Source: a virus. From it: a stretch of DNA of 64,000 nucleotides. The notes beneath the pieces were generated by a model. That model was not told the origin of the DNA. It saw only the letters and a program-made list of their open reading frames with translations, and ran no database searches. The stretch covers positions 49,099 to 113,098 of the IMG/VR virus record IMGVR_UViG_3300035670_000062; one strand, written 5' to 3'. Shown here one piece after another: positions 3,381 through 57,436 of the stretch; position 1 is the stretch's first letter; each line of letters opens with the position of its first letter. Made by a program: the position numbers and the translations under genes.

Positions 3381-3710
3381 ATGAAAACATCAGAACTAAA
3401 AAATTTAATAAAAGAGGCAGTAAGAGAGGCAATTAAAGAAGAATTAAAAGAAATATTATTAGAAGCAATAAAATCTCCTAAATCTCAAATTAATGAACAT
3501 ATGATACCTCAAGTAAATTTATCCTCATCATCACCTCAAACAATGATAGATAAAAGAAGAGCGTATCAAGATGTAATAAATCAAACATCTCTAAATTTTT
3601 CATCTAAAGATATATCACAACCATTTATCCCAACTCAAACAGATCCTATAAATGGTGCATTACCTTCTGGTGAATTAAGTATGGATCAAATAATGAATCT
3701 AATGAAATAA
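3381..3710 (+). CDS. Tagged small protein (MKTSELKNLIKEAV), probable capsid or baseplate cargo
   Basis: The protein has 109 aa. The first 30 residues are a charged amphipathic helix, a variant of the MKKSELRQLIKEE tag seen on many proteins in this window. The rest is low-complexity and polar (Ser/Gln/Pro-rich), with INEH at about 37-40 as a possible (I/L)xE cleavage step. The start lies only 4 bases after a TATTTATA box (3369-3376). The stop overlaps the gp25 start (TAATG). Function is unknown. Unlike the other tagged genes, it sits inside the baseplate operon. Confidence 0.65.
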   Translation: MKTSELKNLIKEAVREAIKEELKEILLEAIKSPKSQINEHMIPQVNLSSSSPQTMIDKRRAYQDVINQTSLNFSSKDISQPFIPTQTDPINGALPSGELSMDQIMNLMK

Positions 3711-4117
3711 TGGCATTTAACCAACAACAAATAAATCCCCTAGATATAGATCCTAATGTTGCTATTGGAATTAATATTCCATTTTCTGCATTAGCTGTAT
3801 TTACATCTAATTATACAACAAAAGATGCAATTAGAAATAATTTATTAAATTACTTTTTAACTAATAATGGGGAAAGATTCATGAATCCATTATTTGGAGG
3901 TGGGTTAAGAGGATTTTTATTTGAACAAATAACAAATAATAATTTAGAATTTCTTGAAGGAACTATTAGTAATGATATAGCTGATTCATTTCCTAATGTT
4001 ATAGTAGATACTTTAAATATATTAAAAAATGAAGATAAAAACACTATAATAATAGAATTTAAATACAGCATAAGAAATACTAATATTCAAGATTCAATAG
4101 AAATATCATTTCAATAA
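3710..4117 (+). CDS. gp25: Baseplate wedge protein gp25-like
   Basis: The protein has 135 aa, the usual length for the GPW/gp25 family. Hallmarks are IGINIPFSA, the TKDAIRNNLLNYFLTNNGER region, and MNPLFGGGLRGFLFE, which is the conserved glycine-rich loop of gp25. gp25 helps join the sheath initiator to the wedge in contractile tails. The gene is coupled by TAATG overlaps to both neighbours and is followed by the gp6-like gene, an order typical of T4-like baseplate clusters. Confidence 0.9.
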   Translation: MAFNQQQINPLDIDPNVAIGINIPFSALAVFTSNYTTKDAIRNNLLNYFLTNNGERFMNPLFGGGLRGFLFEQITNNNLEFLEGTISNDIADSFPNVIVDTLNILKNEDKNTIIIEFKYSIRNTNIQDSIEISFQ

Positions 4118-5967
4118 TGGAAAATAAATCAATAAAATACATAAATAGAGACTTTTCAAGTTTTAAAACAAAATTAGTAGAATTTGCTAAAACATATTTT
4201 CCTAATTCATATAATGATTTCTCACCCTCTTCGCCAGGGATGATGTTTATGGAAATGTCAGCCTATGTTGGAGATGTTATGTCATTTTACTTAGATAATC
4301 AAATCCAAGAAACATTCATACAATATGCGAGACAAGATAATAATTTATATGAATTAGCATACATGTTTGGATATAAACCAAAAATTTCAACAGCAGCTCA
4401 AACAACAATAGACATATACCAACAAGTCCCAGCAATATTATCAGGTTCTAGTTATATACCTGATTATTCTTATGCTTTAACATTAAATGAAAATACTACA
4501 TTATCATCACCTATATCAGATAAAGTTAGTTTTTTAATAGAAGATAGATGTGATTTCAGTGTTTCAAGTTCATTTGATCCAACTGAAGTTTCTATATACC
4601 AAATAGCAGGTAATATACCTCAATATTTTTTATTAAAAAAATCAAGAAAAGCAGTTTCAGCAAATATAAAAACTCAATCATTTATATTCAATGATTTTAC
4701 ACCATTTCCAACAATATCAATAACTGATAATAAGATATTAGGAATACTTGATATAACTGATAGTGATGGAAATAAATGGTATGAAGTAGATCATTTAGGA
4801 CAAGAAATGGTATTTGATAATATAAAAAATACAAATCCAAATGACCCAAATACATACACAGATATTGATGTTCCATTTTTATTAAAATTAAAGAAAATCC
4901 AAAAAAGATTCTCAACAAGAATTTTAAATAAAACAACACTCCAAATCCAGTTTGGTGCTGGTAATCCTAATTCAATTGATGAAGAAATAACTCCTAACCC
5001 AAATAATGTAGGTTTAGGATTACCATTTAAAAAAACAAAACTTACAACAGCTTTCTCACCTGATAATTTCTTATTTACAAATACTTATGGAATTGCTCCA
5101 ACTAATACAACTCTAACAGTAAGGTATTTGTCTGGTGGTGGGGTTGAAGCTAATGTCCCCTCAAATTCTTTAACAAGAATAAATAAAAATACAATAAAAT
5201 TTAATTCAATAAATTTAAACTCATCAACAGCTGACTATATATTCAATTCATTATCAACAACTAATCCTCAAGCAGCAGATGGAGGAGGATCAGGAGACTC
5301 AATTGAAATTATAAGACAAAACACATTAATGAGTATTTCAGCTCAAAATAGATCAGTAACATCAAATGATTATTTAATTAGAGCTCTTAGTATGCCTAGT
5401 GATTATGGTACAATTTCAAAAGCTCATATACAACAACCTCAATTAGTAGATAATCAAGTATCAACAATTGAAACATTAAATTTATTTGTTTTATCTAAAG
5501 ATAATAATGGGTATTTATCAACATCATCAAATACTTTAAAAAATAATCTAAGAACATACTTGTCTCAATATAGAATGATTGGAGATAACATTGAAATAAG
5601 AGATGCTTTTATAATTAATATAGCAGTTGATTTTGAAATTATAGTACTTCCTAATTTTAATAATAATCAAGTAATTTTATCTTGTATAGAAGTATTAAAA
5701 TCACATTTCAATATAGATAATTGGCAAATCAATCAACCAATTTTCTTACGTGATATATATGTAAAATTAGATAGAGTAGAAGGAGTACAAACAGTAAAAA
5801 ACATAAAAATAAGTAATAAAGCTGGAGTATCCCTTGGATACTCAGAATATGGTTATGATATTGAAGGAGCAACACAAAATCAAATAATTTACCCATCATT
5901 AGATTCAAGTATATTTGAACTAAAATACCCAAACCAAGATATAAAAGGGAAAATATCACCATTATAA
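4117..5967 (+). CDS. gp6: Baseplate wedge protein gp6-like (baseplate J family)
   Basis: The protein has 616 aa, close to T4 gp6 (660 aa). The N-terminus YINRDFSSFKTKLVEFAKTY, followed by SPGMMFMEMSAYVGDVMSFY and NLYELAYMFGY, is the classic opening of gp6/baseplate J-like proteins. The C-terminal half contains the conserved NRSVTSNDY segment and domain repeats. gp6 dimers form the ring around the hub. The gene is coupled to gp25 upstream. Its end (5967) is followed by a TATTTATA box at 5970-5977. Confidence 0.9.
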   Translation: MENKSIKYINRDFSSFKTKLVEFAKTYFPNSYNDFSPSSPGMMFMEMSAYVGDVMSFYLDNQIQETFIQYARQDNNLYELAYMFGYKPKISTAAQTTIDIYQQVPAILSGSSYIPDYSYALTLNENTTLSSPISDKVSFLIEDRCDFSVSSSFDPTEVSIYQIAGNIPQYFLLKKSRKAVSANIKTQSFIFNDFTPFPTISITDNKILGILDITDSDGNKWYEVDHLGQEMVFDNIKNTNPNDPNTYTDIDVPFLLKLKKIQKRFSTRILNKTTLQIQFGAGNPNSIDEEITPNPNNVGLGLPFKKTKLTTAFSPDNFLFTNTYGIAPTNTTLTVRYLSGGGVEANVPSNSLTRINKNTIKFNSINLNSSTADYIFNSLSTTNPQAADGGGSGDSIEIIRQNTLMSISAQNRSVTSNDYLIRALSMPSDYGTISKAHIQQPQLVDNQVSTIETLNLFVLSKDNNGYLSTSSNTLKNNLRTYLSQYRMIGDNIEIRDAFIINIAVDFEIIVLPNFNNNQVILSCIEVLKSHFNIDNWQINQPIFLRDIYVKLDRVEGVQTVKNIKISNKAGVSLGYSEYGYDIEGATQNQIIYPSLDSSIFELKYPNQDIKGKISPL

Positions 5968-5969
5968 TA

Positions 5970-5977
5970 TATTTATA
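5970..5977 (+). promoter_or_regulatory. Late promoter box TATTTATA
   Basis: TATTTATAATAAA directly after the gp6 stop and 9 bases before the ATG at 5987. Confidence 0.6.
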
Positions 5978-5986
5978 ATAAAAAAT

Positions 5987-6475: not shown

Positions 6476-6476
6476 A

Positions 6477-6773
6477 ATGAAAAGAAGTGAATTAAGACAA
6501 CTTATTAGAGAAACATTAAACCAAGTTAATGAAAACGAATATTATGGTGAAATCCAAGAACCATTAAACCTATATGATAAATTAGATGAAGTCCTAACAG
6601 ATTCTATGATGACATTCAGTATGGGAACCTCTGAAGAAGATTTTGACTCAGCTGATAATACTCAAAAAGATAAAATTCAAGATATAATGGATCAAGCTAT
6701 CAATTATTTACATAAATCAAAAATATCATTTGATGAGGTAATACGATTAATAGGAAAAGATTACCAAAAATAA
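6477..6773 (+). CDS. Tagged small protein (MKRSELRQLIRETL), probable internal protein
   Basis: The protein has 98 aa. It starts with the recurring tag, which ends in LNQVNENE; VNE could be a gp21-type cleavage step. The body is acidic and helical, without a recognised domain. The start follows the previous stop by one base. It lies between a membrane protein and the gp26-like gene, so it may be an inserted cargo gene. Function is unknown. Confidence 0.65.
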   Translation: MKRSELRQLIRETLNQVNENEYYGEIQEPLNLYDKLDEVLTDSMMTFSMGTSEEDFDSADNTQKDKIQDIMDQAINYLHKSKISFDEVIRLIGKDYQK

Positions 6774-12753: not shown

Positions 12754-13056
12754 ATGAAAAAATCAGAACTAAGACAAATCATTAAAGAAGAAATTTCTAA
12801 AGTATTAAAAGAAGATACAAATACTGAAGTCCAAATAACTCCATATTATGATTTTTATAAAATAATTTTTCCATCAGGATTCGAAGATGAATTTTTCGAA
12901 TCTAAAGATGAAACTAAATTATTTACAGATACAATAATGGGAAACAACCATTATAATAAATTAATTGATAATTTAAAGAAGAACAATATTCCATATAAAG
13001 AAAGAAAAGCAAGATTAGATAATTCTGTTAGAATAGAAATACCTAGAACTTTATGA
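12754..13056 (+). CDS. Tagged small protein (MKKSELRQIIKEEISKVLKE), probable internal protein
   Basis: The protein has 100 aa. The first 20 residues are the consensus tag, ending in VLKE followed by Asp, a good (I/L)xE cleavage step. The remaining 80 residues are a small alpha/beta domain with many aromatic and acidic residues and no family I know. The tag is nearly identical to that of the gene at 56888. After the stop comes a short repeat of the end of the gp53 gene (AGATGAATTTAACAGAATAA at 13061-13080, compare 12710-12730), then a terminator, which suggests insertion by local duplication. Confidence 0.65.
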   Translation: MKKSELRQIIKEEISKVLKEDTNTEVQITPYYDFYKIIFPSGFEDEFFESKDETKLFTDTIMGNNHYNKLIDNLKKNNIPYKERKARLDNSVRIEIPRTL

Positions 13057-39216: not shown

Positions 39217-39463
39217 TATTTCAACCACCTCAACTCATACAATACGTGAGTTTAATGAAAATATAGACTCTACCGAACTTCTTTGGCATCGGGATTTAAA
39301 AGACCGTAAAGTAACAATATTAGAGGGTAATGGTTGGTATTTTCAAAGAGACAATGAACTTCCTTTGGAATTAAAAGAAGGAGTTAGTATATTTATACCA
39401 AAATTAGAATGGCATAGAGTGATTAAAGGAAACACTACATTAAAAATAAAAATAGAAGAATGA
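39200..39463 (+). CDS. Small cupin-like protein
   Basis: The protein has 87 aa. IREFNENIDSTELLWHRDLK, then RKVTILEGNGWYFQ, LPLELKEGVSIFIPKLEWHR and KIKIEE, is a single-domain cupin-like barrel with two His-containing edges, a type I associate with T4-like phage genomes. Ligand and reaction are unknown. It overlaps the neighbours on both sides. Confidence 0.7.
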   Translation: MKPYINISTTSTHTIREFNENIDSTELLWHRDLKDRKVTILEGNGWYFQRDNELPLELKEGVSIFIPKLEWHRVIKGNTTLKIKIEE

Positions 39464-39993: not shown

Positions 39994-40829
39994 AAAAAAG
40001 CGAATTAAGACAACTTATTAAAGAGTCACTTAATAATAAATATAAATTAGATTCATGTAATTGTGGTTGTAATGTATGTGAGAATACTGGGAATAAAGGC
40101 GTTATTCTAAATGAAAACATAGCTCCCATACAAATATCTGAAAACATAAAATACCACATTAATAATCGCTTACCCTTAACAGAAAATACATTTAGATATG
40201 GCTCAGATGCATTTTTAGATTTATGGAAAGAAGCACGTCATTTATATTCAAGAAATGCTATTCATGTTAATGAATCTGACAAGGAAATTTTAATGGAAAC
40301 TAATTTAGGTGAATACGGAATATATGAAGGACAAAAAGTACCTTTAGACATGCCTATGGTTGACGAAAATACAGATGAAGACAAAGAAGATAACAAAACT
40401 TGGAGTTCATATGAACAAAAAATGGTAAATCAAATATTGCGTGCTAAAAAAGATGGCACTCCCATATTCGAATTACCTATGAAAACACAAGATTTTTATC
40501 GTAAAAATAAAGATAAATTTACTAAGTCATTAAACGAAGCAGAATTCAAAGGTAAAGATGTAGAGTTAAACAAACCAAAACGTGGTGGTTCTAAAAAGTT
40601 TTATGTATATGTTAGAGACCCTAAAACCAAAAAAGTTAAAAAAGTATCATTTGGGGATTCTGGAGGATTATCAACTAAAGTAAATGACCCAAAAGCAAGA
40701 AAAGCTTTTGCAGCAAGACATGATTGCAAAAATAAAAAGGATCGTACTTCTGCTGGGTGGTGGAGTTGTAATCTTCCTAAATATGCTAAATTATTAGGTA
40801 TAAAAAGTACTTTTACTGGATATTGGTAA
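39990..40829 (+). CDS. Tagged mosaic polyprotein with Cys cluster and conserved C-terminal domain
   Basis: The protein has 279 aa. The tag MKKSELRQLIKESLNNK is followed by CNCGCNVCENTG, a small metal-binding-like cluster. Then come successive possible protease steps: VILNENI, PLTENT, HVNES, ILMETN and SLNEAEF. The C-terminal 85 residues (KFYVYVRDPKTKKVKKVSFG; NDPKARKAFAARHDC; WWSCNLPKYAKLLG) are a domain of the type often fused to phage structural or accessory proteins. The density of LNE-like steps between short segments makes it the clearest polyprotein candidate. Confidence 0.65.
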   Translation: MKKSELRQLIKESLNNKYKLDSCNCGCNVCENTGNKGVILNENIAPIQISENIKYHINNRLPLTENTFRYGSDAFLDLWKEARHLYSRNAIHVNESDKEILMETNLGEYGIYEGQKVPLDMPMVDENTDEDKEDNKTWSSYEQKMVNQILRAKKDGTPIFELPMKTQDFYRKNKDKFTKSLNEAEFKGKDVELNKPKRGGSKKFYVYVRDPKTKKVKKVSFGDSGGLSTKVNDPKARKAFAARHDCKNKKDRTSAGWWSCNLPKYAKLLGIKSTFTGYW

Positions 40830-41736: not shown

Positions 41737-42282
41737 ATGAAAAAATCAGAACTTAGACAACTTATTAAGGAGGAGATTAAACAAATTATTTCCGAAAAAT
41801 TTATTAATCTCATAGGAGAAGATAATATTAAACCATACATTCAAGATATATGGAATATAATGCAAAGAACATATAAATCTATAGGTGGTTTTAAGACAGC
41901 TAATTCTCCTGAAGAATTATTAAATAAAGTATCATTTGCTAAACTTGTTAAGAAAGATAATAAAATAATAGCAGCAATTTTATATAAAGATAAATTAGGA
42001 AGAAAAACCATAGCAGGGGGAAGTGATGGGAGTACAGAAGGAGTTAAATGGATTAAAAAAGTATTCCAAGAAGAAATACAACAACAACGTTCATGGGGAG
42101 AATTTAGTGGTAAAATGGAATCATTGATGTTAAAATATGGAGGTATTCCTATCCCCAACTCAGAAGCAGAAAGTATATTAGGTAAAGATATAATTGAAAA
42201 AAATAAAGATGGTTACCATTATACAAGACTAATTAATGGAGAACCTCATGAGAAAATAATAATAGGACATTTAGGAACTTAA
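41737..42282 (+). CDS. Tagged cargo protein with GNAT-like domain
   Basis: The protein has 181 aa. The tag MKKSELRQLIKEEIKQIISE ends in IISE, an (I/L)xE step. The body (DIWNIMQRTYKSIGGFKTAN; KDNKIIAAILYKDKLGRKTI; FSGKMESLMLKYGGIPIPNS; HYTRLINGEPHEKIIIGHLG) looks like an acetyltransferase-type alpha/beta fold known from phage accessory proteins. The substrate is unknown. It is isolated downstream of a homing endonuclease and followed by a 68-base gap. Confidence 0.6.
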   Translation: MKKSELRQLIKEEIKQIISEKFINLIGEDNIKPYIQDIWNIMQRTYKSIGGFKTANSPEELLNKVSFAKLVKKDNKIIAAILYKDKLGRKTIAGGSDGSTEGVKWIKKVFQEEIQQQRSWGEFSGKMESLMLKYGGIPIPNSEAESILGKDIIEKNKDGYHYTRLINGEPHEKIIIGHLGT

Positions 42283-43578: not shown

Positions 43579-43785
43579 ATGAAAAAATCAGAACTTAGAC
43601 AACTTATTAAAGAAGAATTAACTTCACTAAAACCTCAATATAATTTCGCAGCTAAAGCATTAAATACAGATATTAAAATTAATAATTCAACAGATGAAAC
43701 ATTTAATACAGATGTTTATTATAAACTAATTGAATTTATTAAAACTAATAACCTCAATCCAAAAACAATAGTATTAACATTCTAA
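43579..43785 (+). CDS. Tagged mini-protein (MKKSELRQLIKEELTSLK)
   Basis: The protein has 68 aa. The tag makes up a quarter of it. The rest (YNFAAKALNTDIKINNSTDE; FIKTNNLNPKTIVLTF) is a small alpha/beta piece with no recognised family. It is preceded by a TATTTATA box. It may be the shortened remnant of a longer cargo protein or a complete small internal protein. Confidence 0.6.
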   Translation: MKKSELRQLIKEELTSLKPQYNFAAKALNTDIKINNSTDETFNTDVYYKLIEFIKTNNLNPKTIVLTF

Positions 43786-43800: not shown

Positions 43801-44487
43801 ATGAAAAAATCAGAATTCAAAAAACAAATAAAAGAGGAAATAATTTCCATATTAAAAGAACAAACAGTGGTCGATAAAACTACAAAACCAGAATCTCTAA
43901 AAGGTAAAGATCCTCAAACAGTAAAAACTGCAATTGAAACTGCTAAAAAAACAAATAAACCTGTTACTATAGCTGAAGAAGATGGTAATGAATTAGAAGT
44001 GGGAGATATAGTAACAATTCCTATGAGTTTAACTATTGATCCATACAATAAAAGAGGTGAAGAAGGTAAAATACTTATAAGGAGTTCAGATGGAATGGTA
44101 GTTGTAATTGAATTTAATGATGGTTCTTTAGGATTATATGATCCCGATATATTTATGGATTCTTTAGATGAAGGTAGAGGAAGACCTAAAAAATCTGAAT
44201 CTAAAAAAGAAGATGATGAAGATGAAGAAGATGTAAAGGATGATTGGGAAAAACCTGAAGCTGATGAAGATGGTGATAAAGATAAAGAACCATCAAAAGC
44301 TGAATTAGCTAAAATGAAAAAAGATTCTGTAGCTACTATATCAAATAAATTACAAAAAATTGTAAAACAAATGAAAGATAAAGTAGAAGAATATAAAACA
44401 GCAGAAGGAGATAAAAAAGAAGCTATTAAAGATGAATTAAAAGAGTTAACTAAAGAAAAGAAAAAACTTGAAAATCAATTATCATAG
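43801..44487 (+). CDS. Tagged, highly charged protein
   Basis: The protein has 228 aa. The tag MKKSEFKKQIKEEIISILKE ends in ILKE followed by Gln. The middle is a small beta module (EVGDIVTIPMSLTIDPYNKR; GMVVVIEFNDGSLGLYDPDI) of KOW/SH3-like layout. The C-terminal half is acidic/lysine-rich and helical (coiled coil KDELKELTKEKKKLENQLS). It overlaps the next gene by 20 bases. A cargo or head-core role is likely from the tag and the proximity to the head module. Confidence 0.65.
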   Translation: MKKSEFKKQIKEEIISILKEQTVVDKTTKPESLKGKDPQTVKTAIETAKKTNKPVTIAEEDGNELEVGDIVTIPMSLTIDPYNKRGEEGKILIRSSDGMVVVIEFNDGSLGLYDPDIFMDSLDEGRGRPKKSESKKEDDEDEEDVKDDWEKPEADEDGDKDKEPSKAELAKMKKDSVATISNKLQKIVKQMKDKVEEYKTAEGDKKEAIKDELKELTKEKKKLENQLS

Positions 44488-45064: not shown

Positions 45065-46660
45065 ATGGGTAATAGTAGTGAAATCCAAGACATAATAAGA
45101 CAAGAATATATTCTCTGTGTTAAAGATCCAGGTCATTTTATGAAGAAATACTGTAATATTCAACACCCACAAAGAGGAAGAATACCTTTTCATTTATATC
45201 CATTTCAAGATAAAGTATTACAATTATGGAAAGATAATCCATATTCAGTTATTTTAAAATCAAGACAATTAGGTATATCAACCTTAGCAGCGGGTTATGC
45301 CTTATGGTTAATGTTATTTCATAAAGATAAAAACATACTATGTCTCGCTACGACTCAAGAGACTGCCAAAAACATGGTAACTAAAGTAATGTTTATGTAT
45401 GATAACTTACCTTCATGGTTAAGAGAAAAAGATAAACCACTTGAACAAAATAAATTAACCTTAAAACTTAATAATGGTTCTCAAATAAAAGCTAAATCAT
45501 CAAACGCTGATGCTGCTCGTTCAGAAGCCGTATCTTTACTAATAATAGATGAAGCTGCGTTTATTGAAAATATTGCAGAAACTTGGGCTTCTGCACAACA
45601 AACCTTAGCAACAGGAGGTGGAGCTATTGTTTTATCAACTCCATATGGTACTGGAAATTGGTTTCATCAAACATGGGTTAGAGCTGAAGAAAAATTAAAT
45701 GATTTTCTTCCAATTAAACTTCCATGGTTTGTCCATCCTGAAAGAGATGAAACTTGGAGAAAAAAACAAGATGAATTATTAGGTGATCCTAGGTTAGCGG
45801 CACAAGAATGTGATGCAGTTTTCTCTACATCAGGTGATACAGTATTTTACAATGAATTTATTGAATTTTTTGAAAATAATCATATATTGGAACCAATGGA
45901 AAAAAGGGGAATTGACCATAACTTATGGATATGGGAACCATGTGATTATTCAAAAAGTTATATGGTTGTAGCGGATGTAGCTAGGGGAGATTCAAAAGAT
46001 TATTCTGCATTTCATATAATAGATATTGAAAATAACTCACAAGTGGGTGAGTATAAAGGACAAATAAGTACTAGAGATTTTGGTTATTTATTAGTAGGAA
46101 TAGCAACAGAATATAATAATGCTTTATTAGTTGTTGAAAATGCAAATATAGGATGGGCCACAATTCAAACTATACAAGAAAGAGCATATTCTAACTTATA
46201 TTATTCACCTAAAAGTGGAGACAACACTTATGATTCGTATTTTGACCAATATTCAGATACATCAAGAATGACACCTGGTTTTACTATGAATTCAAGAAAT
46301 AGACCTATGGTGATAGGTAAATTTTTAGAAGCAGTAGGAGATCGAAGTGTAATAATAAGATCAAAAAGACTTATTGAAGAAATGAAAGTATTTGTTTGGA
46401 AAAATGGTAGAGCTGAAGCTCAACCTGGATATAATGATGACTTAGTAATAAGTTTTGGTATTGGATTATTTGTAAGAGACTCAGCACTTCGATTTGGGCA
46501 ACAAAACGTTGATATATCAAGAAACTTACTAAATAGTATAACAGTAACAAAAACACCATATAATGGAGCTTATAACCACAATCAAAACAATGACCCATGG
46601 AAAATAAAAAACCCATACTCAAATGATGATAGTGATAATAATTTAAGATGGCTTCTATAA
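45065..46660 (+). CDS. terL: Terminase large subunit
   Basis: The protein has 531 aa, against 610 for T4 gp17. The Walker A-like motif SRQLGIST covers residues 66-73. CLATTQETAKNMVTKVMFMY follows. Walker B is LLIIDEAAF with Asp162 and catalytic Glu163, and ALSTPYGT-like motif III appears as VLSTPYGTGNW. The nuclease domain starts with VVADVARGDSKDYSAFHIID (Asp304), and NDDLVISFGIGLFVRD carries the later acidic residue. It packages DNA into the prohead. No small terminase is recognised next to it. Confidence 0.95.
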   Translation: MGNSSEIQDIIRQEYILCVKDPGHFMKKYCNIQHPQRGRIPFHLYPFQDKVLQLWKDNPYSVILKSRQLGISTLAAGYALWLMLFHKDKNILCLATTQETAKNMVTKVMFMYDNLPSWLREKDKPLEQNKLTLKLNNGSQIKAKSSNADAARSEAVSLLIIDEAAFIENIAETWASAQQTLATGGGAIVLSTPYGTGNWFHQTWVRAEEKLNDFLPIKLPWFVHPERDETWRKKQDELLGDPRLAAQECDAVFSTSGDTVFYNEFIEFFENNHILEPMEKRGIDHNLWIWEPCDYSKSYMVVADVARGDSKDYSAFHIIDIENNSQVGEYKGQISTRDFGYLLVGIATEYNNALLVVENANIGWATIQTIQERAYSNLYYSPKSGDNTYDSYFDQYSDTSRMTPGFTMNSRNRPMVIGKFLEAVGDRSVIIRSKRLIEEMKVFVWKNGRAEAQPGYNDDLVISFGIGLFVRDSALRFGQQNVDISRNLLNSITVTKTPYNGAYNHNQNNDPWKIKNPYSNDDSDNNLRWLL

Positions 46661-46681: not shown

Positions 46682-48553
46682 ATGGCAGACACACAATTAT
46701 TCCCAAGATTGAAAAGATTATTTTCAACAGATGTAATAATAAGAAACATAGGAGGAAACCAACTCCAAATAATGGATATAAATCAGATACAACAAGCTGG
46801 TAATTTACAAACAAATTCCTTAGTAGATAGGTTTAGTAGAATTTATACTACATCACCTACATCACCTAACTCATATTCTTCAAGATTAAATTATTCAACA
46901 TTGAGACCTAGTCTTTATAATGAGTATGATAATATGGATACTGATGCTATTGTATCTTCGGTATTAGATATAATAGCAGATGAATGTACTCTAAAGAATG
47001 ATATGAATGAAGTTATTCAAATTAAAAGTAGTGATGAAAATATTCAACAAATATTATATAATTTATTTTATGATGTTATGAATATTGAATTTTCATTAGG
47101 GTTATGGATAAGAAATATGTGTAAATATGGTGATTTTTTCTTAAAATTAGAAATTGCCGAAAAATTTGGAGTATATAATGTAATACCATATAGCGCATAT
47201 CAAATAGAAAGATTAGAAGGTCAAGATAAACAAAATCCCCATGCTATTAGTTTTAAAGTAATTGAAGAATATTCAACTTATGGAACTCATGGAATATTTA
47301 ATAATTCAAAAGAAACTATCACATTCGATAATTATGAAATGGCTCATTTTAGATTATTGACAGATACTAATTTTTTACCATATGGAAGAAGTTATATTGA
47401 AAACGCTAGAAAATTATATAAACAATATACTCTAATGGAAGATGCAGCTCTTATACATAGAATAGTAAGAGCACCAGAAAAAAGAATATTTTACATAAAT
47501 GTAGGTAACATCCCACCAGCTGAAGTAGAAAATTTCATGCAGAAAACAATTTCTAAAATGAAAAGAACACCTCACGTTGACCCACAAACAGGTGATTATA
47601 ATTTAAAATATAACATGCAAAATATGTTAGAAGATTTTTATGTTCCTGTTAGAGGTAATGATTCATCTACAAAAATTGAAGCATCACCTGCTCTTAATTA
47701 TGATGGGATGGCTGATATTGAATATTTAAGAAATAAATTATTTGCTGCTTTAAAAGTCCCCAAAGCTTTTATGGGATATGGAGAAGACACAAGTGGAAAG
47801 GCAACTTTGGCTGCCCAAGATATTAGATTTGCACGTACTATAGAAAGAATACAAAGAATAGTATTATCTGAATTAAATAAAATAGCATTAATACATTTAT
47901 ATACTCAAGGATATAGAGATGGAAATTTAACAAACTTTGAATTATCATTAACAACTCCATCTATTATTTATGACCAAGAAAGAGTAGCTTTGTTAAAAGA
48001 AAAAGTAGATTTAGCTGGACAAATGATGGAATTAAATTTGTTCCCATCTGATTTCATATATGATAATTTATTTAAACTTAGTGAAGATAAATACGATGAA
48101 TATAGAGACTTAATTAGAGAAGATGCAAAACGTAAATTTAGACTGACCCAAATAGAACAGGAAGGAAATGACCCATTAGAATCAGGTCAATCATATGGTA
48201 CCCCTCATGACTTAGCTTCATTATATGGGACTGGAAGAATAACTAAACCAGGAGAAATTCCAAATGGATATGATGAAAATAAAGAATTAGGAAGACCTAA
48301 AACTAATATGACTGATAGAAATACTCAAAAAGATAATTTTGGTAAAGATAGATTAGGAGCTAAAGCACAAAAAGAAAAAGAACCTCAATCCCAAAAACAA
48401 AAATTCAAAGGTAATTCCCCCCTAGCATTAGAAATGAAAAACATAATTAAAAAATTACCTCAAGCACCAAAATCAGAAAAAAACATTATATTAGAATCAC
48501 TTTCTAATAAAATCAATTTCCTAGATGAATCAAATTTAGAACTAGAAGACTAA
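46682..48553 (+). CDS. gp20: Portal protein gp20-like
   Basis: The protein has 623 aa. AIVSSVLDIIADECTLKND, GLWIRNMCKYGDFFLKLEI, IPYSAYQIERLEG, RIVRAPEKRIFYINVGNIPP and LEDFYVPVRG give the typical T4 gp20 portal pattern (clip, stem and wing). The C-terminal 100 residues are polar and variable. The 12-mer portal forms the DNA channel at one vertex and starts prohead assembly. It follows terminase by 21 bases, in T4 order. Confidence 0.95.
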   Translation: MADTQLFPRLKRLFSTDVIIRNIGGNQLQIMDINQIQQAGNLQTNSLVDRFSRIYTTSPTSPNSYSSRLNYSTLRPSLYNEYDNMDTDAIVSSVLDIIADECTLKNDMNEVIQIKSSDENIQQILYNLFYDVMNIEFSLGLWIRNMCKYGDFFLKLEIAEKFGVYNVIPYSAYQIERLEGQDKQNPHAISFKVIEEYSTYGTHGIFNNSKETITFDNYEMAHFRLLTDTNFLPYGRSYIENARKLYKQYTLMEDAALIHRIVRAPEKRIFYINVGNIPPAEVENFMQKTISKMKRTPHVDPQTGDYNLKYNMQNMLEDFYVPVRGNDSSTKIEASPALNYDGMADIEYLRNKLFAALKVPKAFMGYGEDTSGKATLAAQDIRFARTIERIQRIVLSELNKIALIHLYTQGYRDGNLTNFELSLTTPSIIYDQERVALLKEKVDLAGQMMELNLFPSDFIYDNLFKLSEDKYDEYRDLIREDAKRKFRLTQIEQEGNDPLESGQSYGTPHDLASLYGTGRITKPGEIPNGYDENKELGRPKTNMTDRNTQKDNFGKDRLGAKAQKEKEPQSQKQKFKGNSPLALEMKNIIKKLPQAPKSEKNIILESLSNKINFLDESNLELED

Positions 48554-50059: not shown

Positions 50060-52558
50060 ATGAAAAATACACTTACAGAACAATACAGACTTATTAAAAT
50101 AGGTAAAGGAAATAAAGAAACTTTTTTAAAGGAAGCTAAATCATTATTCCCTAACTTACTTACAAATAGTTCAACATATAATGAAACTGAAAAGATTTTA
50201 AAACAAAAGGGAGTAATATCTGAAAATATTCATAGTTTGAATCCTATTGCATTTCCTACTACTAAAAAAGAATCATATGAAATAGCATTTAGTAAATTCT
50301 TAAAAGAAGCTAAAAAGGAAGAACCTAAAACTGAAACTTACGACAATAAGAATACTAAAAATTCTAATAACTTAATATTCGACCAAATAATGAGAGGATG
50401 TTATGTTGAAGCTAAAGTTGAGAAAAATAAAGACAAGACAATAGATGAAATTAAAGACATTGTTGTTAAAAATTTACAAAAAGATCCTATTTATTATACT
50501 AAAAATGGTGCTTTTGGTGAAGAAGGATTAGGATATGAAACTGAAGTTCCTGGTTTAGGTACTCCAAAAGAGGCTAAAGGTAAGTATAAATCAAGTGGAT
50601 ATGGTGATTTAAAAGAAAATACTACAAGATTATTTTATAGGATTCCTAATGAAATAAAAAATTTAGAAAAATATGGAGTAAAAATTACTATAGACCCTAA
50701 AAATACAGTTTCACCAATTCAAAGAATAGGAGTACCTGTAAATTTAGATGATGAAATATATGATAAAATAGAAGATATTCTATATAGATATAATTTAAAA
50801 CCCAAAAAATATTTTATCACACAAAAAGGCGTAAACGAAAACAAAGACACTGAAATTAAAATAGGAGACATTCTTATTAAAAATGGAAAAAAAGGAAAAG
50901 TTATAAAAGTGATGGATGATATGGTTAATGTTGATTTTGGTAACGGGGATGTTTACGGTATTACTTTAAGTAGAATTAAAGGAAATGAAATAGTAAACGA
51001 AAACAAAGATGCTGAAGTTTATGCTAAGAAAAAAGGTTTTACCACAAAAAAAGGATTAAATGAAAATAATAATTTAAAAGAAGGTAATGATTTTGGTGGA
51101 GCTGGTTTAATAGTTGTGGGTCGTACTCCAATAGATAATGATTTAATAGACCAAGCTGTAGAAGAAAGTGGTTTTTACGGAATATTTAATGCTAGAGAAA
51201 ATTATTGGTTTTTTCCTGAAGGTGAAGAAACAATAGATAGGCTAGAAAATGAATTAGAAACTATTTTTATTAAAAAAGGAATTAATGCTAGATTTGAAGG
51301 TCAATTTAATGAAAATAAAACAAACAATCAACCTAAATTCAAAAAAGGTGACAAAGTAACTTACCTAGGCCATCCAGGTGAAATTACTGCTGTTAATAAA
51401 GAAATGACTGGTGCTATTACATATAATGTTGCTTATAATAAAGGAACAGGTAGAACTAAAGCAACAAACATCTATAACAAAGATGGTGAAATTAAACCTT
51501 TAAATGAATCAAATTCAGAATATTTAGATAAATTATATGATATAATTTTAAAATATGTTAAAGATCCTGACGAAGCAGAACAAGAATTAGATGGATATAT
51601 AAGTCAAGGATGGAGTGGATTTTCAAATATGTTAATGTCTAATCTAAATAAAGATATGGATTTTATATCATTAACCCAACAAGGACATGATAAAGACATT
51701 CAAAGAAGAGAATCTGGATTAAATGAATCATATGGTTCAAATGGTGACTTTGATGGTACTGGTTTAATAGTAGTAGGTCGCACCCAAATAGATAATAATG
51801 AAATTGGAGATGTAATTGAAGATTTAGGTTATTATGGAGTATGGAATTCAAGAGAAGGATATTGGTTTATACAAGAAGATAAACCAACTCTTAGTTATTT
51901 AGAAGCTGATTTAGATGAAGAATTTGCTAAACGAGATATTAATGCTAGATTTGAAGCTCAATTTGGAGAGGATGAAATAGATTACGATGATGAAAATTTC
52001 TCAGACCCCCTAATAGATGGTGAAGAAGATTTATTTGAAAGTAAATGGAGAAAAACACAAAAAGAAAAAATAGTTAAAGAAAATATAAATAAAGAAATTA
52101 CCCAAATTAACAAAGATGCGGAATCAGAAGTTTTAGAAAGTAAATTATCTAAAATAAATGATGCTATTGAAAAAAGGGAATCTAAATTATCTAAAATAAA
52201 TGAAGATGAAGATTTAAAAGGATTAACTGACAATAAAAAAATTAAATCTCTACAAAAGGAAATAAAAACTTTAGAAAAACATAAATCTAAAATCGAGAAA
52301 CAATTAAATAAAGGCTCAAAACAAAACAAACCTAAGGAAATCAATGATGAAATCATAGATGAAACTGAGGGATTGAATTTCGAATATAAAGATTATTTTA
52401 ATTTAAACGAATCGATAGAGGAACAATTATCTTCAACACAAGAATCATTATTTACTTTAATCGAGGATTTATATGATGAATTAGGTAGCATGGATGAAGT
52501 AAAAAAATTAGTTAATTCTGCTTTAAACAACGTCGCTTTAAAATTTGGTGATTATTAA
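50060..52558 (+). CDS. Large repetitive head-module polyprotein
   Basis: The protein has 832 aa. About nine NE junctions separate its parts: VISENI, DLKENT, GVNENK, IVNENK, GLNENN, QFNENK, PLNESN, GLNESY and NLNESI. A domain GAGLIVVGRTPID (from about 342) recurs as GTGLIVVGRTQID (from about 560), each ending with INARFE. KOW/SH3-like pieces (GDILIKNGKKGKVIKVMDDM; KGDKVTYLGHPGEITAV) lie between. It sits directly before the prohead protease. The pattern fits a core or cargo polyprotein cut by that protease. Function is otherwise unknown. Confidence 0.7.
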   Translation: MKNTLTEQYRLIKIGKGNKETFLKEAKSLFPNLLTNSSTYNETEKILKQKGVISENIHSLNPIAFPTTKKESYEIAFSKFLKEAKKEEPKTETYDNKNTKNSNNLIFDQIMRGCYVEAKVEKNKDKTIDEIKDIVVKNLQKDPIYYTKNGAFGEEGLGYETEVPGLGTPKEAKGKYKSSGYGDLKENTTRLFYRIPNEIKNLEKYGVKITIDPKNTVSPIQRIGVPVNLDDEIYDKIEDILYRYNLKPKKYFITQKGVNENKDTEIKIGDILIKNGKKGKVIKVMDDMVNVDFGNGDVYGITLSRIKGNEIVNENKDAEVYAKKKGFTTKKGLNENNNLKEGNDFGGAGLIVVGRTPIDNDLIDQAVEESGFYGIFNARENYWFFPEGEETIDRLENELETIFIKKGINARFEGQFNENKTNNQPKFKKGDKVTYLGHPGEITAVNKEMTGAITYNVAYNKGTGRTKATNIYNKDGEIKPLNESNSEYLDKLYDIILKYVKDPDEAEQELDGYISQGWSGFSNMLMSNLNKDMDFISLTQQGHDKDIQRRESGLNESYGSNGDFDGTGLIVVGRTQIDNNEIGDVIEDLGYYGVWNSREGYWFIQEDKPTLSYLEADLDEEFAKRDINARFEAQFGEDEIDYDDENFSDPLIDGEEDLFESKWRKTQKEKIVKENINKEITQINKDAESEVLESKLSKINDAIEKRESKLSKINEDEDLKGLTDNKKIKSLQKEIKTLEKHKSKIEKQLNKGSKQNKPKEINDEIIDETEGLNFEYKDYFNLNESIEEQLSSTQESLFTLIEDLYDELGSMDEVKKLVNSALNNVALKFGDY

Positions 52559-52578: not shown

Positions 52579-53211
52579 ATGAATAGAACATTATTAATAG
52601 AAACTAATATATTAGTACCTTCATTATTAAAAGAAGAAAATTCTAATAATAATGGAAATATATTCATTGAAGGTATATTAGCTACCTGTGAAGTTGAAAA
52701 TGGAAATGGTAGATATTACCCTAGAGAATTATGGGAGAGAGAAATTAAAATCTTCGAAAATAAAATAAAAGCAGGTTCAACTGAATGCGCAGGGGAATTA
52801 GATCACCCTCAATCAGAAATAATCAATCTAAATAATGTATCTCATGCTATTAGAAAAGTATGGTGGAATGGAGATAAAATTATGGGATTAATAGAAATAT
52901 TCTCAGATCAGGGTCCTAAAGGAACTACAGCAGGAAGAATAGCAGGAGCATTAATTAGAAATAATCTATCAGTAGGTGTAAGTAGTAGAGGGATGGGTTC
53001 ATTAACTGAAGTAAATGGAGTAATGGAAGTTCAAGATGATTTTTCATTATTATGTTGGGATTTAGTATCAAACCCATCAAACCCAAACTCATGGATGAAG
53101 GAATCAAAAGGTTCATTAAATGAATCTAGATTATCTTCAATAGATAAGTATTCTAAAGTAAATTCTATTATAACAGAAATATTATGTTCTAATGGAATGT
53201 GTAAAATTTAA
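52579..53211 (+). CDS. gp21: Prohead core protein and protease gp21-like
   Basis: The protein has 210 aa, against 212 for T4 gp21. GILATCEVENGNGRYYPREL is the conserved start of the protease fold. The catalytic His is His76 in GELDHPQSE, and the Ser is Ser135 or Ser136 in VGVSSRGMGSL. DLVSNPSNPNSWM closes the fold. SLLKEENS near the N-terminus and GSLNESRLSS near the C-terminus look like self-cleavage steps of the (I/L)xE type. The protease matures scaffold, capsid and internal proteins, and probably the tagged proteins in this window. Confidence 0.93.
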   Translation: MNRTLLIETNILVPSLLKEENSNNNGNIFIEGILATCEVENGNGRYYPRELWEREIKIFENKIKAGSTECAGELDHPQSEIINLNNVSHAIRKVWWNGDKIMGLIEIFSDQGPKGTTAGRIAGALIRNNLSVGVSSRGMGSLTEVNGVMEVQDDFSLLCWDLVSNPSNPNSWMKESKGSLNESRLSSIDKYSKVNSIITEILCSNGMCKI

Positions 53212-53370: not shown

Positions 53371-54336
53371 ATGGCAAAAAGAGATCTATTCAAAGAAGCT
53401 ATTGCAGAAGCTAAAGCAGTAAAAGAAGTCGCGATTGCAAATGCAAAAATAGCATTAGAAGAAGCTTTCACTCCACATTTAAAATCAATTTTATCACAAC
53501 GTATCCAAGAAATGGAATATGAAGAAGATGAAGAAGAAACAATGAATATGGAAGAAAGTGAAGAAACATTAGACTTATCAGAAATTTTAAAAGAAATTGA
53601 GGATGATGAAGATATTATTGAATCTGAAGAAGAGGAAGATAAAGACATCGCTGAAATTTTAAAAGAAATTGAGGATGAAGTTGATAATGAAATGGAAGAA
53701 GAAGATGAAGAAGATGAAGAAGAAGAAGAATCATTAAATATCGAAGACATGACAGATGAAGATTTAAAAGACTTTATCGAATCAGTAATTAAAGACATGG
53801 TAGCAGCTGGTGAATTAGAACCAAATACTGAAATGGAAGATGATGAAATGGAAGATATGGATGATGAAATTGACTTAGAAATTGAAGATGATGAAACTGA
53901 AGATGAAGAAATTGAAGAAAACAACATCGATTCAGGAGCAGCTCCAAAATCATTTATTAAACAAAACCCTGACTATGTTATGGAGTTAAGAAATGAATTA
54001 AGAGAAGCAAACAAATCATTAATAATATTACGTAGTAAGTTAAATGAAGTTAATTTATTAAATTCAAAATTACTTTATACTAATAAAATTTTCCAATCTA
54101 ATACATTATCAACAAAAGAAAAAACAAGTATATTAGAATCATTTGATAAAGCAACAACAGTAAAAGAAGCAAAATTGGTATTTGAAACTTTGAACGAGGG
54201 TTTAAAAAGTAAAAAACAACCAATTAAAGAATCTTTAAGTATGGCTTCAAAATCAATGGGTTCACAACAAAAACCAAACCAAATAATTAACATAGATCCT
54301 CAAGTCCAAAGATGGAAAAAACTTGCGGGACTATAA
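53371..54336 (+). CDS. gp22: Prohead scaffold protein gp22-like
   Basis: The protein has 321 aa. A helical N-terminus (LFKEAIAEAKAVKEVAIANA) is followed by a very acidic Glu/Asp-rich middle (residues 50-190) and a C-terminal coiled coil. The end KPNQIINIDPQVQRWKKLAG, then L, is a known kind of gp22 terminus that contacts the capsid. TLNEGL, IKESLS and KLNEVN are candidate sites for destruction by gp21 during maturation. It sits directly before the capsid gene, in T4 order. Confidence 0.88.
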   Translation: MAKRDLFKEAIAEAKAVKEVAIANAKIALEEAFTPHLKSILSQRIQEMEYEEDEEETMNMEESEETLDLSEILKEIEDDEDIIESEEEEDKDIAEILKEIEDEVDNEMEEEDEEDEEEEESLNIEDMTDEDLKDFIESVIKDMVAAGELEPNTEMEDDEMEDMDDEIDLEIEDDETEDEEIEENNIDSGAAPKSFIKQNPDYVMELRNELREANKSLIILRSKLNEVNLLNSKLLYTNKIFQSNTLSTKEKTSILESFDKATTVKEAKLVFETLNEGLKSKKQPIKESLSMASKSMGSQQKPNQIINIDPQVQRWKKLAGL

Positions 54337-54363: not shown

Positions 54364-56016
54364 ATGTCACAATTAAATTCATTATTAGAAAGTGCATCTC
54401 AAAGTTTCAAAAATTTGAACAACGATGCAGCTAGACTAGCTAAAAAATGGTCAGCAACAGGTCTATTAGAAGGCCTAAGTAACGAGAACGAAAGAAACAG
54501 TATGTCTATGTTACTTGAAAACCAAGCTAAACAATTAGTATTGGAATCAAACAGTACAAACCAAGGTGGAGCTACCTTTTCAGGAGGTGGTCAAGGTGAA
54601 CAATGGAATGGAATTGCATTACCATTAGTGAGAAAAGTATTTGGACAAATATCTTCCAAAGAATTTGTTTCATTACAAACAATGAACATGCCTTCAGGTC
54701 TTGTATTTTACTTGGATTTCCAGTATGGACAATCAAAAAGACCAAATTTTGGACCTTCAGGAGACGTATTTGCTGAAACTTCATCATTATATGGTAACAC
54801 AAACCCAGGTGCTGCTGCAAACCCAGCAGGAGGTATGTATGGTGCTGGAAGATTTGGTTATTCAATTAATCAATTTAAAGCTACTGTAACTTCAAGTAAC
54901 GTAACTACAAGTTCTGCAGATTGGGTAGATGTTGATTATGATGCTGCTTTATCAGCTTCAATTGCTGCTGGTGATTTGACAAAAATTACTATCCCAATTT
55001 CTGGTTCATTAACTAGACCTGATTTGAAAGGTGTAAGAGCATTTAGTGTGTCTGCTTCTACTGCAAATCCTGCATTCTTATTACCTGCTTACACTTCAAC
55101 TGATGGAACTAACATTACGTTTGTATTTGCTTCAGGTTCAGGTGTAGCTCAAGGTGGTGTAGACGTATACTACAACCAACAACCAGTTGATAACAACAGA
55201 GGTGATTTTGAAGATGTAACAAACGGTGGTTTCCCTAATGCTCAATCTCAAACAGAACTTTCAATCCCATCAATTGATGTGAAAATGAAATCTGAAGCTA
55301 TTGTTGCTAAAACAAGAAAATTAAAAGCACAATGGACACCTGAGTTTGCTCAAGATTTGAATGCATACCAAGCATTAGACGCAGAAGCAGAATTAACTTC
55401 AATCATGAGTGAGTATATTTCAATGGAAATTGACTTAGAAATCTTAGACATGTTGATTCAAGATGCTTCAGGTTTCGATGAATATTGGAATGCTTCAAAC
55501 AACCAACAATTGAATGCTGCTAAAACAGGATACGATAACTTAGGTTTCTATAACACTCAAGGTCAATGGTTCCAAACATTAGGTACTAAATTACAAAAAG
55601 TAAGCAACAAAATCCATACTAAGACTATGAGAGGAGGAGCTAATTTCATGGTAATTAGCCCAACTGTAGCTACAATCATTGAATCAATTCCTGGATTTGC
55701 TTCAAACGCTGATGGTGATGCTGCTAAAAACAAATTTGCATTCGGTATCCAGAAAATGGGTCAAATGAATAGCAGATATGATGTATACAAAAACCCTTAC
55801 ATGTCTGAAAACGTGATTTTAATGGGTTATAGAGGTAGCCAATTCTTGGAAGCTGGTGCGGTATTTGCTCCATATGTTCCATTAATCCAAACACCTTTAG
55901 TATACGATCCAGATACCTTCACTCCAAGAAAAGGTATGTTAACAAGATATGCTAAGAAAATGATAAGACCAGAATATTATGGACGTGTATTCGTTTCTAA
56001 TACTGAGTTAGTTTAA
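54364..56016 (+). CDS. gp23: Major capsid protein gp23-like
   Basis: The protein has 550 aa (T4 gp23: 521). NGIALPLVRKVFGQISSKEF, SLQTMNMPSGLVFYLDFQYG, KARKLKAQWTPEF-like TRKLKAQWTPEFAQDL and GGANFMVISPTVATIIESIP form the HK97-type gp23 fold. The N-terminal 60 residues (to LVLESNST) are a probable prosegment removed by gp21. Codon use is richer in C-ending codons than elsewhere, as expected for the most abundant protein. A terminator follows at 56043. Confidence 0.95.
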   Translation: MSQLNSLLESASQSFKNLNNDAARLAKKWSATGLLEGLSNENERNSMSMLLENQAKQLVLESNSTNQGGATFSGGGQGEQWNGIALPLVRKVFGQISSKEFVSLQTMNMPSGLVFYLDFQYGQSKRPNFGPSGDVFAETSSLYGNTNPGAAANPAGGMYGAGRFGYSINQFKATVTSSNVTTSSADWVDVDYDAALSASIAAGDLTKITIPISGSLTRPDLKGVRAFSVSASTANPAFLLPAYTSTDGTNITFVFASGSGVAQGGVDVYYNQQPVDNNRGDFEDVTNGGFPNAQSQTELSIPSIDVKMKSEAIVAKTRKLKAQWTPEFAQDLNAYQALDAEAELTSIMSEYISMEIDLEILDMLIQDASGFDEYWNASNNQQLNAAKTGYDNLGFYNTQGQWFQTLGTKLQKVSNKIHTKTMRGGANFMVISPTVATIIESIPGFASNADGDAAKNKFAFGIQKMGQMNSRYDVYKNPYMSENVILMGYRGSQFLEAGAVFAPYVPLIQTPLVYDPDTFTPRKGMLTRYAKKMIRPEYYGRVFVSNTELV

Positions 56017-56042
56017 TCATTTAAAACATAACTGAAAAGAAG

Positions 56043-56071: not shown

Positions 56072-56108
56072 ATATGTAAACATTTGGTTACTTTAAAGAA
56101 AATTCATA

Positions 56109-56116
56109 TATTTATA
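56109..56116 (+). promoter_or_regulatory. Late promoter box of cassette 1
   Basis: TATTTATAATAAAAA at the end of the repeat unit; ATG at 56132. Confidence 0.65.
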
Positions 56117-56131
56117 ATAAAAAATAACAAA

Positions 56132-56764
56132 ATGAAAAAAAGCGAATTAAGACAACTAATCAAAGAAGAAATCTCTAAAATAAAAGAAATTGATAGCTAT
56201 GGTAAAATAGGAAAACAATACCCAGCCCCAGAGTATGAAGATGAACTTAAAGGGAAACTAACTAATCAAAAAAGATTGTTAAGAAAAAAGATGAGCCAAG
56301 ATAAATTTGCTAAAATAACAAAAGATTTATTTGATGATGCTTCTAAAGGATTAATTTTCATCTCAGACTACCCTAAGGATAATAAATATTCTGCACTTTT
56401 TGTAGATGAAAATAGTAAATATAAAAATCTTTTAACAGGAAAAGAAAATTATGGTTTAAATGATATACCCTATACATATAATAAAGCTTTACCAAAATCC
56501 GAAGCTATTACTCCTCCACATAAATTAGATATAAGGACTTTCCGCAAAATAATTTATGGTGTGCTTACATCTGGCCCTGGCGAGACATTTTACATTACTA
56601 ATTTCCTCCCAGACTCAGTTACTGGTATTGGAGATATGATTCAAGTGGGAAGAGGTGGATATGTAGTAGAAAAATCAAAATTTAAGAGAGAAAGTAGTGA
56701 TTATGGTTTTCCACAAGAATTAGGTAATGGTTTAGCATATGTCCCATTTTTCTTTAGAAATTAA
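56132..56764 (+). CDS. Tagged cargo protein downstream of the capsid gene (cassette 1)
   Basis: The protein has 210 aa from ATG 56132, chosen because the tag MKKSELRQLIKEEISKIKEI begins here; the longer frame to 56084 would translate the promoter box. The body has DASKGLIFISDYPKDNKYSA, FRKIIYGVLTSGPGETFYIT and MIQVGRGGYVVEKSKF, an alpha/beta domain without a known family. Its position in a terminator-promoter cassette behind the capsid gene suggests strong late expression, as expected for an internal head protein. Confidence 0.7.
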   Translation: MKKSELRQLIKEEISKIKEIDSYGKIGKQYPAPEYEDELKGKLTNQKRLLRKKMSQDKFAKITKDLFDDASKGLIFISDYPKDNKYSALFVDENSKYKNLLTGKENYGLNDIPYTYNKALPKSEAITPPHKLDIRTFRKIIYGVLTSGPGETFYITNFLPDSVTGIGDMIQVGRGGYVVEKSKFKRESSDYGFPQELGNGLAYVPFFFRN

Positions 56765-56794
56765 ATAATCATTTAAAACATAACTGAAAAGAAG

Positions 56795-56821
56795 GAGCCA
56801 AGTAAATACTTGGCTCTTTTT
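56795..56821 (+). terminator. Rho-independent terminator after cassette 1
   Basis: Same ten-base-pair stem as at 56043, with five T. Confidence 0.9.
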
Positions 56822-56858
56822 GTCTGTAAATATTTGGTTACTTTAAAGAAAATTCATA

Positions 56859-56866
56859 TATTTATA
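56859..56866 (+). promoter_or_regulatory. Late promoter box of cassette 2
   Basis: TATTTATAATAAATA at the end of the second repeat unit; ATG at 56888. Confidence 0.65.
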
Positions 56867-56887
56867 ATAAATAAACAAATAAATACA

Positions 56888-57436
56888 ATGAAAAAAAGCG
56901 AATTAAGACAAATCATCAAAGAAGAGATTTCTAAAGTATTAAATGAGGAAATTGACATATCTACTGAGTTAGTTAAATTTTTCCAAACTAATCCCTTCAC
57001 AAAAGAAAACCAGTGGTCACATGACTATGAAGCTAAAGATTACATTCAAAATGTAATGAATAGACCTTTAACTCCAAAAGAAAAAAGCCAAATTACTAGA
57101 ATGATAAATAAATATCGCGATGATTTTTGGGGAAAAAGTTACAGAGAAGAAAGAGATAAAGAAGATAAAACATCAAAGGAACGTTATTTAAATAATCTTC
57201 TTCCTTTAACTGTAGACAATGGAAGAGGAAGACCAGACAGTACATACTATACTGTAGCTAACACATACTATTATACAGACAACGATGGAAATACATCAAC
57301 TTCCCACATTGACTCTAAAAGTGGATACACTGATTATAAATTAAGAGATAAATGGATAAACACTCCAGTAGACAAAGCAACATTAGACAAATATTGGCAT
57401 CCAGGAACATTAAGAATGATAGGAATAAAAAATTAA
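56888..57436 (+). CDS. Tagged cargo protein (cassette 2)
   Basis: The protein has 182 aa from ATG 56888, where the tag MKKSELRQIIKEEISKVLNE starts and ends in VLNE followed by Glu. The body (AKDYIQNVMNRPLTPKEKSQ; YYTVANTYYYTDNDGNTSTS; LRDKWINTPVDKATLDKYWH) is unrelated to that of cassette 1. The upstream frame to 56810 overlaps the promoter and is rejected. Function is unknown; capsid cargo is inferred from the tag. Confidence 0.7.
   Translation: MKKSELRQIIKEEISKVLNEEIDISTELVKFFQTNPFTKENQWSHDYEAKDYIQNVMNRPLTPKEKSQITRMINKYRDDFWGKSYREERDKEDKTSKERYLNNLLPLTVDNGRGRPDSTYYTVANTYYYTDNDGNTSTSHIDSKSGYTDYKLRDKWINTPVDKATLDKYWHPGTLRMIGIKN

Follow-up and report, generated by a model that had tools for sequence, protein, structure and literature searches.

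Short N-terminal peptides that probably target unrelated proteins to the head of T4-like phages

The specificity reported for gp21, the prohead protease of phage T4, is L/I-X-E, and the capsid targeting sequences (CTS) of T4 internal proteins are described as 10 to 19 residues long (PMC9026906). The T4 peptide is conserved in IPII and IPIII only according to one review (PMC9958956), and IPI also carries a similar peptide according to another (PMC9026906). Replacing the Glu of the T4 IPIII site with Asp is reported to block cleavage but not packaging (PMC9026906). In phage P1, the N-terminal 30 residues of DarB are reported to suffice for packaging a reporter, and the Dar system packages several proteins (PMC9024508). 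The heads of phiKZ and SPN3US are described as holding many packaged proteins with N-terminal propeptides, which a gp21-related protease cuts after Glu (PMC9026906, PMC5694885). Here we analyze the final 64 kb (bases 49,099 to 113,098, hereafter the window) of the 113,098-base T4-like phage record IMGVR_UViG_3300035670_000062, in which a short N-terminal peptide, the class A tag, is carried by proteins with unrelated bodies. Comparison with related phages makes it likely that this tag and its equivalents of other classes are capsid-targeting peptides that load varied cargo into the head and are cut off by a gp21-like protease.

The class A tag (MKKSELRQLIREEI) resembles a T4-type CTS in being a short N-terminal peptide common to otherwise unrelated proteins. 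From 125 viral loci, 163 distinct strict tags were collected. Requiring a length of 40 residues or more and bodies with no common 8-mer reduced them to 139 representatives; this filter is crude, and distant relatives remain among the 139. Conservation ends at about residue 20 in these representatives, and their bodies differ. In the re-searched loci, a start codon precedes all 176 distinct occurrences of the strict pattern KKSEL[RK][QK][LIM]I (171 ATG, 3 TTG, and 2 GTG), a count favored by the ATG-initial pattern with which many loci were fetched. The open residues ahead of the tag number at most 20 in 158 of the 176, 21 to 60 in 13, and more in 4, with 1 running off the locus end; 19 have an earlier in-frame ATG. 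The exact DNA pattern is present in 32 stretches of viral contigs, and a second pattern in 100. Bacterial and archaeal contigs contain the DNA pattern in one stretch, a 39-residue chance frame, and a bacterial origin of the tag was therefore rejected; the situation that the sequence-only reading of this DNA had named as contrary to its proposal, a tag occurring mainly in bacterial proteins, was not seen.

A class A profile was built from 22 tag rows, three of them from the window (the proteins starting at 12754, 41737, and 56888), and used at a threshold of E<=0.01. It matches 3 to 11 places per phage in each of eight tagged phages and two in Flavobacterium phage immuto, an isolate whose host is Flavobacterium sp. 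LMO8, and has no matches in 11 control records of 90 to 173 kb. In short-peptide tblastn against named phages, class A gave a single weak match (LR756508, E 3), a second variant gave no match, and class B, described below, matched four immuto records. By eye, about twenty diverged tags of the form MKxxExKLRxIIREEI surround gp21-like and gp23-like genes at 150 to 200 kb of LR756508 (locus L141), from an uncultured 484-kb phage.

Behind the class A tag lies a candidate protease site that matches the specificity reported for T4 gp21. A total of 108 of the 139 representatives have [LI]xE with its Glu at residues 16 to 22, whereas shuffling of residues 14 to 30 gave a mean of 19.8 and a maximum of 34 in 2000 rounds, and windows in the bodies of 104 proteins contain [LI]xE in 5% to 7%. 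When 13 other third residues were tried in place of Glu, the commonest were K (53) and N (23). Glu at position 17, 19, or 20 is coupled to L or I two residues earlier (Fisher p from about 1e-12 to 1e-20), and Glu at position 16 is not (p 0.58). In 51 of 119, the site is followed by A, S, or G.

At least four candidate tag classes exist. When the N-terminal 6-mers of tagged phages are counted, the class A letters rank first, and the next motif beyond the starts of single orthologues is QKLAGI. Besides class A, we named class B (MENFDLKKFLVENKLT), present in immuto and in the window at 34190 and, by eye, at 33801; class C (MKKQILSEQFRRMQKLAGIINE); and class D (MIKLIDILKE). Of 42 distinct class C bodies, 41 have [LI]xE directly after the motif (shuffle 10.4, maximum 20 of 2000), and the site is present in 35 of 39 class D proteins by a loose pattern that also picks up a few signal-peptide-like starts. 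One phage, G002, has a close class A variant, MKxTEFRKLIREEVRKVL, and a protein with class A and class C tags in tandem.

The class C motif, RMQKLAGI, is also the extreme C-terminus of the scaffold encoded directly before gp23. In 12 of the 12 phages examined, the C-terminus of the protein encoded ahead of gp23 is this motif or a variant of it: the window (RWKKLAGL), G002, G012, G019, G020, G028, immuto, Microcystis phage Mel-JY01, Rhodothermus phage RM378, G003 (RRMRRIAGIE), G027 (KRMRQLSGLKG), and the 484-kb phage (SRMQKLADIS). Among the matches listed in viral contigs, 90 of 119 distinct RMQKLAGI occurrences are at the extreme C-terminus, 26 are near the N-terminus, and 3 are internal. Within the same matches, gp23 lies no more than 2.5 kb downstream of 88 of 93 C-terminal occurrences (copies unmerged; not in 1, and 4 without room), as opposed to 0 of 30 other occurrences (2 without room). 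The C-terminal motif has [LIV]xE shortly ahead of it in 74 of 85 of the listed matches (shuffle 16.3, maximum 28 of 1000), 62 of the 74 at identical distance and many from related proteins. Since [LIV]xE precedes the C-terminal motif and [LI]xE follows the N-terminal one, the site is on the body side in both orientations. Four proteins with the motif at the C-terminus (L355, L357, L412, and L423) are unlike the scaffold by eye, and their endings may be C-terminal tags.

A gp21-like protease is encoded by 24 of the 40 tagged records that are 30 kb or longer, and a gp23-like protein likewise by 24; all 7 tagged records of 100 kb or more encode both. Of 40 control records of 30 kb or longer, 1 has the protease, as does 1 of the 11 that reach 90 kb. 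These controls, taken from 80 listed matches of a DNA polymerase motif scan (44 are 30 kb or longer, and 40 of those were used), are unmatched to the tagged records in base composition and host. Class A genes also cluster near the head genes: 30 of 45 are within 25 kb of gp21-gp23 in the eight phages versus 490 of 1859 other genes, and the pooled mean distance is 21.7 kb versus 59.0 kb for random genes, with 0 of 5000 samples as close. This closeness holds singly in G000, G002, G020, and G028.

In the window, the head genes are arranged as follows.

45065 to 46660, + strand, terminase large subunit (gp17-like; phrog_2)
46682 to 48553, + strand, portal (gp20-like; phrog_213)
50060 to 52558, + strand, probable head-core polyprotein of 832 residues with 8 [LIVF]NE sites, without a strong family match
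52579 to 53211, + strand, prohead protease (gp21-like; phrog_207, 8.8e-50)
53371 to 54336, + strand, scaffold (gp22-like), ending in RWKKLAGL, assigned by position and homology
54364 to 56016, + strand, major capsid protein (gp23-like; phrog_138)

The gp21-like protease postulated at 52579 is confirmed by its PHROG match; it has an N-terminal LIE at residue 8 within LLIET, letters also present near the N-terminus of T4 gp21, where LIE is at residue 9. The protein at 53371, for which the PHROG search gave no match, was named scaffold because it sits before gp23 and is homologous to proteins in that position. Among named phages, the capsid protein at 54364 is closest to that of immuto (56% identity), followed by those of Mel-JY01 (49%), the uncultured 484-kb phage (47%), and RM378 (34%). 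The N-terminus of the terminase at 45065, like that of its G012 counterpart at 33326, weakly resembles the tag (9.9 bits in G012). In G027, the gp21-like match at 121957 to 123633 falls in two pieces about 1 kb apart inside one frame of 559 residues, as if by an intein-like in-frame insertion.

All 12 starts to which the sequence-only reading assigned a shared N-terminus are open frames on the + strand with an N-terminus of the claimed kind. When the whole 113-kb record was searched, the class A profile matched 10 of them and had no match at 3381 or 37134, and it found no tag in the first 49 kb. The tagged proteins of the window, including those of class B, are listed here.

3381 to 3710, + strand, doubtful member, a gene conserved in several loci and close to baseplate-like genes; its N-terminus is tag-like and has an LLE site
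6477 to 6773, + strand, class A tagged protein, 98 residues, VNE at 19 (profile)
12754 to 13056, + strand, class A tagged protein, 100 residues, LKE at 20 (profile)
33801 to 34190, + strand, class B-like tagged protein (by eye), 129 residues, LTE at 19; relatives C-like or A-like
34190 to 34798, + strand, class B tagged protein, 202 residues, LLE at 17; relatives A, C, and D-like
37134 to 37976, + strand, probable tagged protein, diverged, LFE at 16; relatives class D or D-like, missed by the class A profile
37995 to 38501, + strand, class A tagged protein, 168 residues, IRE at 17 (profile)
39460 to 39993, + strand, class A tagged protein, 177 residues, LAE at 17 (profile); relatives L063 and L070 are class D
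39990 to 40829, + strand, class A tagged protein, 279 residues, Cys-rich linker, LNE at 42 (profile)
41737 to 42282, + strand, class A tagged protein, 181 residues (profile)
43579 to 43785, + strand, class A tagged protein, 68 residues, without [LI]xE after the core (profile)
43801 to 44487, + strand, class A tagged protein, 228 residues, diverged tag, LKE at 20 (profile E 0.0035)
56132 to 56764, + strand, class A tagged protein, 210 residues, directly after gp23, IKE at 19 (profile)
56888 to 57436, + strand, class A tagged protein, 182 residues, LNE at 20 (profile)

The sequence-only reading noted LKE, LNE, or ISE at the end of several of these tags; [LI]xE with Glu at residues 16 to 22 is present in 9 of the 12, the exceptions being 6477 (VNE at 19), 39990 (next site at 42), and 43579 (none within the first 45 residues). 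At 41737, the Glu of [IL]xE is residue 20 in all four aligned sequences, from the window and three relatives. Membership of 3381 and 37134 in class A is doubtful. The gene at 3381 directly precedes one that resembles, by eye, the annotated baseplate assembly gene of immuto, and it has orthologues in other loci; for these reasons it is doubtful as cargo and may be a fixed gene rather than a variable one.

The cargo is nearly all without family assignment. Among the 73 of the 139 representatives that reach 95 residues, Pfam assigned seven families, each in one body, and scans against a defence library and PHROG likewise matched every family in one member only. A GNAT identity for the 41737 protein, suggested from its letters, was rejected because the model was of too low quality (predicted local distance difference test [pLDDT] score 53, best PDB match E 0.079); the suggested ParB-like body was not supported (weak match, E 0.0068), nor were the metal-binding-like segments, which gave no family or fold match. 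For 39990, the model (pLDDT 69) had a best PDB match of E 1.5. Its C-terminal portion of about 85 residues is a basic, Cys-containing module (KPKRGG...W) common to many phage proteins of other build. Elsewhere in the window, a 656-residue protein (30377 to 32347) begins with a part that resembles deoxyribonucleotidases and also matches an acetyltransferase weakly.

Related bodies bear different tag classes in different phages, indicating that the putative tags are interchangeable. The class A protein at 39460 has the same body as L063 and L070, which carry class D tags. The class B protein at 34190 is related to L459 (class C), to L348 and L385 (D-like by eye), and weakly to immuto gp095 (class A; E 2.6e-4), the class B-like protein at 33801 to L412 (C-like) and L278 (A-like), and that at 37134 to L429, L357, and L279 (class D or D-like). 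In the pattern-labeled pair L288 (class D) and L349 (class C), the alignment begins at residues 9 and 26, respectively, in each the Glu of the site. Of the 25 pattern-labeled cross-class pairs, several are short or weak, and a single case, whose common part lies deep inside one partner, accounts for four near-identical pairs. The 50060 protein looks like a cargo polyprotein. It has a conserved head-core domain (about residues 1 to 190) followed by further segments, and its eight [LIVF]NE sites compare with a shuffle mean of 2.0 and a maximum of 7 in 2000; elsewhere, some of the segments stand alone as proteins, whose tag is A-like in L355 and of class B in L058. The same gene contains a duplicated GLIVVGRT segment.

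The mechanism we infer from these marks would consist of docking, for class A on a presumed partner, followed by cleavage, packaging, and ejection. An N-terminal amphipathic helix, class A (MKKSELRQLIREEI-) or the equivalent B, C, or D peptide, would dock an unrelated body onto the core or shell of the assembling prohead. After assembly, the gp21-like protease would cut after the terminal [LI]xE of the tag and free the body inside the head, from which it would be ejected into the host together with the DNA. Class C would mimic the C-terminal peptide of the scaffold; because it copies that terminus, class C cargo probably takes the scaffold's own docking site, which is likely on gp23.

A different role in the virion can be envisaged, in which the tag serves as a helix for assembling proteins onto another part (tail, baseplate, or neck) and [LI]xE is a by-product of amphipathicity. 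The genes at 3381, 6477, and 12754 sit among genes that resemble, by eye, tail and baseplate genes of immuto, and two models predict, with low confidence, that the tag is helical (residues 3 to 15 and 3 to 19). However, [LI]xE is far more frequent than in shuffles and than [LI]x followed by the other residues tried, its Glu is coupled to L/I at three positions rather than one, gp21 co-occurs with the tag, and class C, which shares bodies with the other classes, is the scaffold C-terminus; we consider this role unlikely. The lack of known-family matches for most tagged bodies would also suit a tag that addresses proteins elsewhere in the infected cell (replication compartment or membrane) or serves another process. 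Such an address is very unlikely given the tag-free first 49 kb of the record, the identity of class C with the scaffold end, and the position of tags near head genes in the pooled phages.

That tags recur within one genome on unrelated bodies would be expected, too, if a mobile cassette of promoter, ribosome site, and start codon were spreading for the sake of expression, its peptide being functionless. A cassette of common upstream DNA was not seen, as the 45 bases upstream of tagged genes average only 33% identity (without a matched control). Moreover, the same serine is encoded by TCA, TCT, and AGC across tags in the window's record, and peptides of other classes substitute on related bodies, leaving the cassette with hardly any probability. 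Synonymous differences exceeded nonsynonymous ones among differing codons, but the rows had been picked by amino-acid pattern, and this comparison was not used.

Several observations weigh against capsid targeting. [LI]xE with Glu at residues 16 to 22 is absent from 31 of the 139 tags, 20 of which lack even a version with V, M, or F, and the cut could instead fall inside the conserved core, at IRE or IKE at residues 10 to 12. No gp21 was seen in 16 of the 40 tagged records, all shorter than 72 kb, which may be fragments. Closeness to head genes is weak in G003, G019, and G027 (0.08 to 0.11 of samples as close), and class A genes of G012 are as distant from head genes as random ones (62 versus 57 kb). 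The scaffolds, tags, and records are related and therefore non-independent (at least two pairs among the 40 records score alike). The class A profile has no match in T4, RM378, Mel-JY01, P-SSM4, or HTVC008M, and a few of its weakest matches fall inside frames (G028 272926 and G003 51718). Overall, the proposal that these are capsid-targeting peptides is well supported in silico by start-codon position, the protease site, co-occurrence with gp21 and gp23, pooled proximity to head genes, and exchange with a tag that matches the scaffold end.

It is also reasonably likely that these phages form a widespread T4-like group with a modular cargo bay, in which interchangeable docking peptides, one copying the scaffold C-terminus with the gp21 site on the body side, load many unrelated proteins, some of whose domains also occur in the head-core polyprotein. 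The docking code rather than the cargo would then be conserved, and it would mark the injected proteins that make first contact with the host. If so, well over 100 unassigned phage proteins counted here can be recognized from their sequence tags as probably injected, and anti-defence and host-takeover factors could naturally be sought among them; the tags would also add to the packaging tags of T4 and P1. A 2023 review calls the mechanisms that localize certain proteins in the T4 scaffolding core "mysterious" (PMC9958956), and a cargo tag equal to the scaffold C-terminus makes that question directly testable.

Among known systems, P1 Dar likewise uses an N-terminal capsid targeting signal, but the Dar N-termini are described as having no consensus and P1 as lacking a separate scaffold (PMC9024508), whereas the phages here have a strong consensus and a scaffold. 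In phiKZ and SPN3US, the cleavage motifs differ (S/A-X-E and A-X-E) and several propeptides exceed 100 residues; 15 N-terminal residues are common to two paralogues, and the relevant passages mention no general tag (PMC9026906, PMC5694885). The T4 internal proteins are alike in combining a short N-terminal peptide on unrelated cargo, an L/I-X-E end, and a gp21-family protease, and the head gene order 20-21-22-23 is shared. T4 provides precedent for each of the proposed steps (docking, gp21 cut, retention, and ejection), of which these phages show the sequence marks. Class D resembles the T4 peptide in length, and class A has no sequence relation to it by the profile, which found no T4 match. 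T4 gp22 ends differently, whereas one class here is the scaffold C-terminus, and the phages here have at least four classes and up to 16 tagged genes per record (pattern counts). Short peptides that bind the inside of an HK97-fold shell also address cargo in encapsulin cargo loading and in P22 scaffold-fusion packaging; these are not known to involve protease release or phage-injected cargo. A search for the tag letters found no related paper in the open-access PubMed Central (PMC) literature. The principle is already known from T4 and P1; as far as that literature shows, what is new is the set of tag classes, the exchange of one class for another on related bodies, and the identity of class C with the scaffold end.

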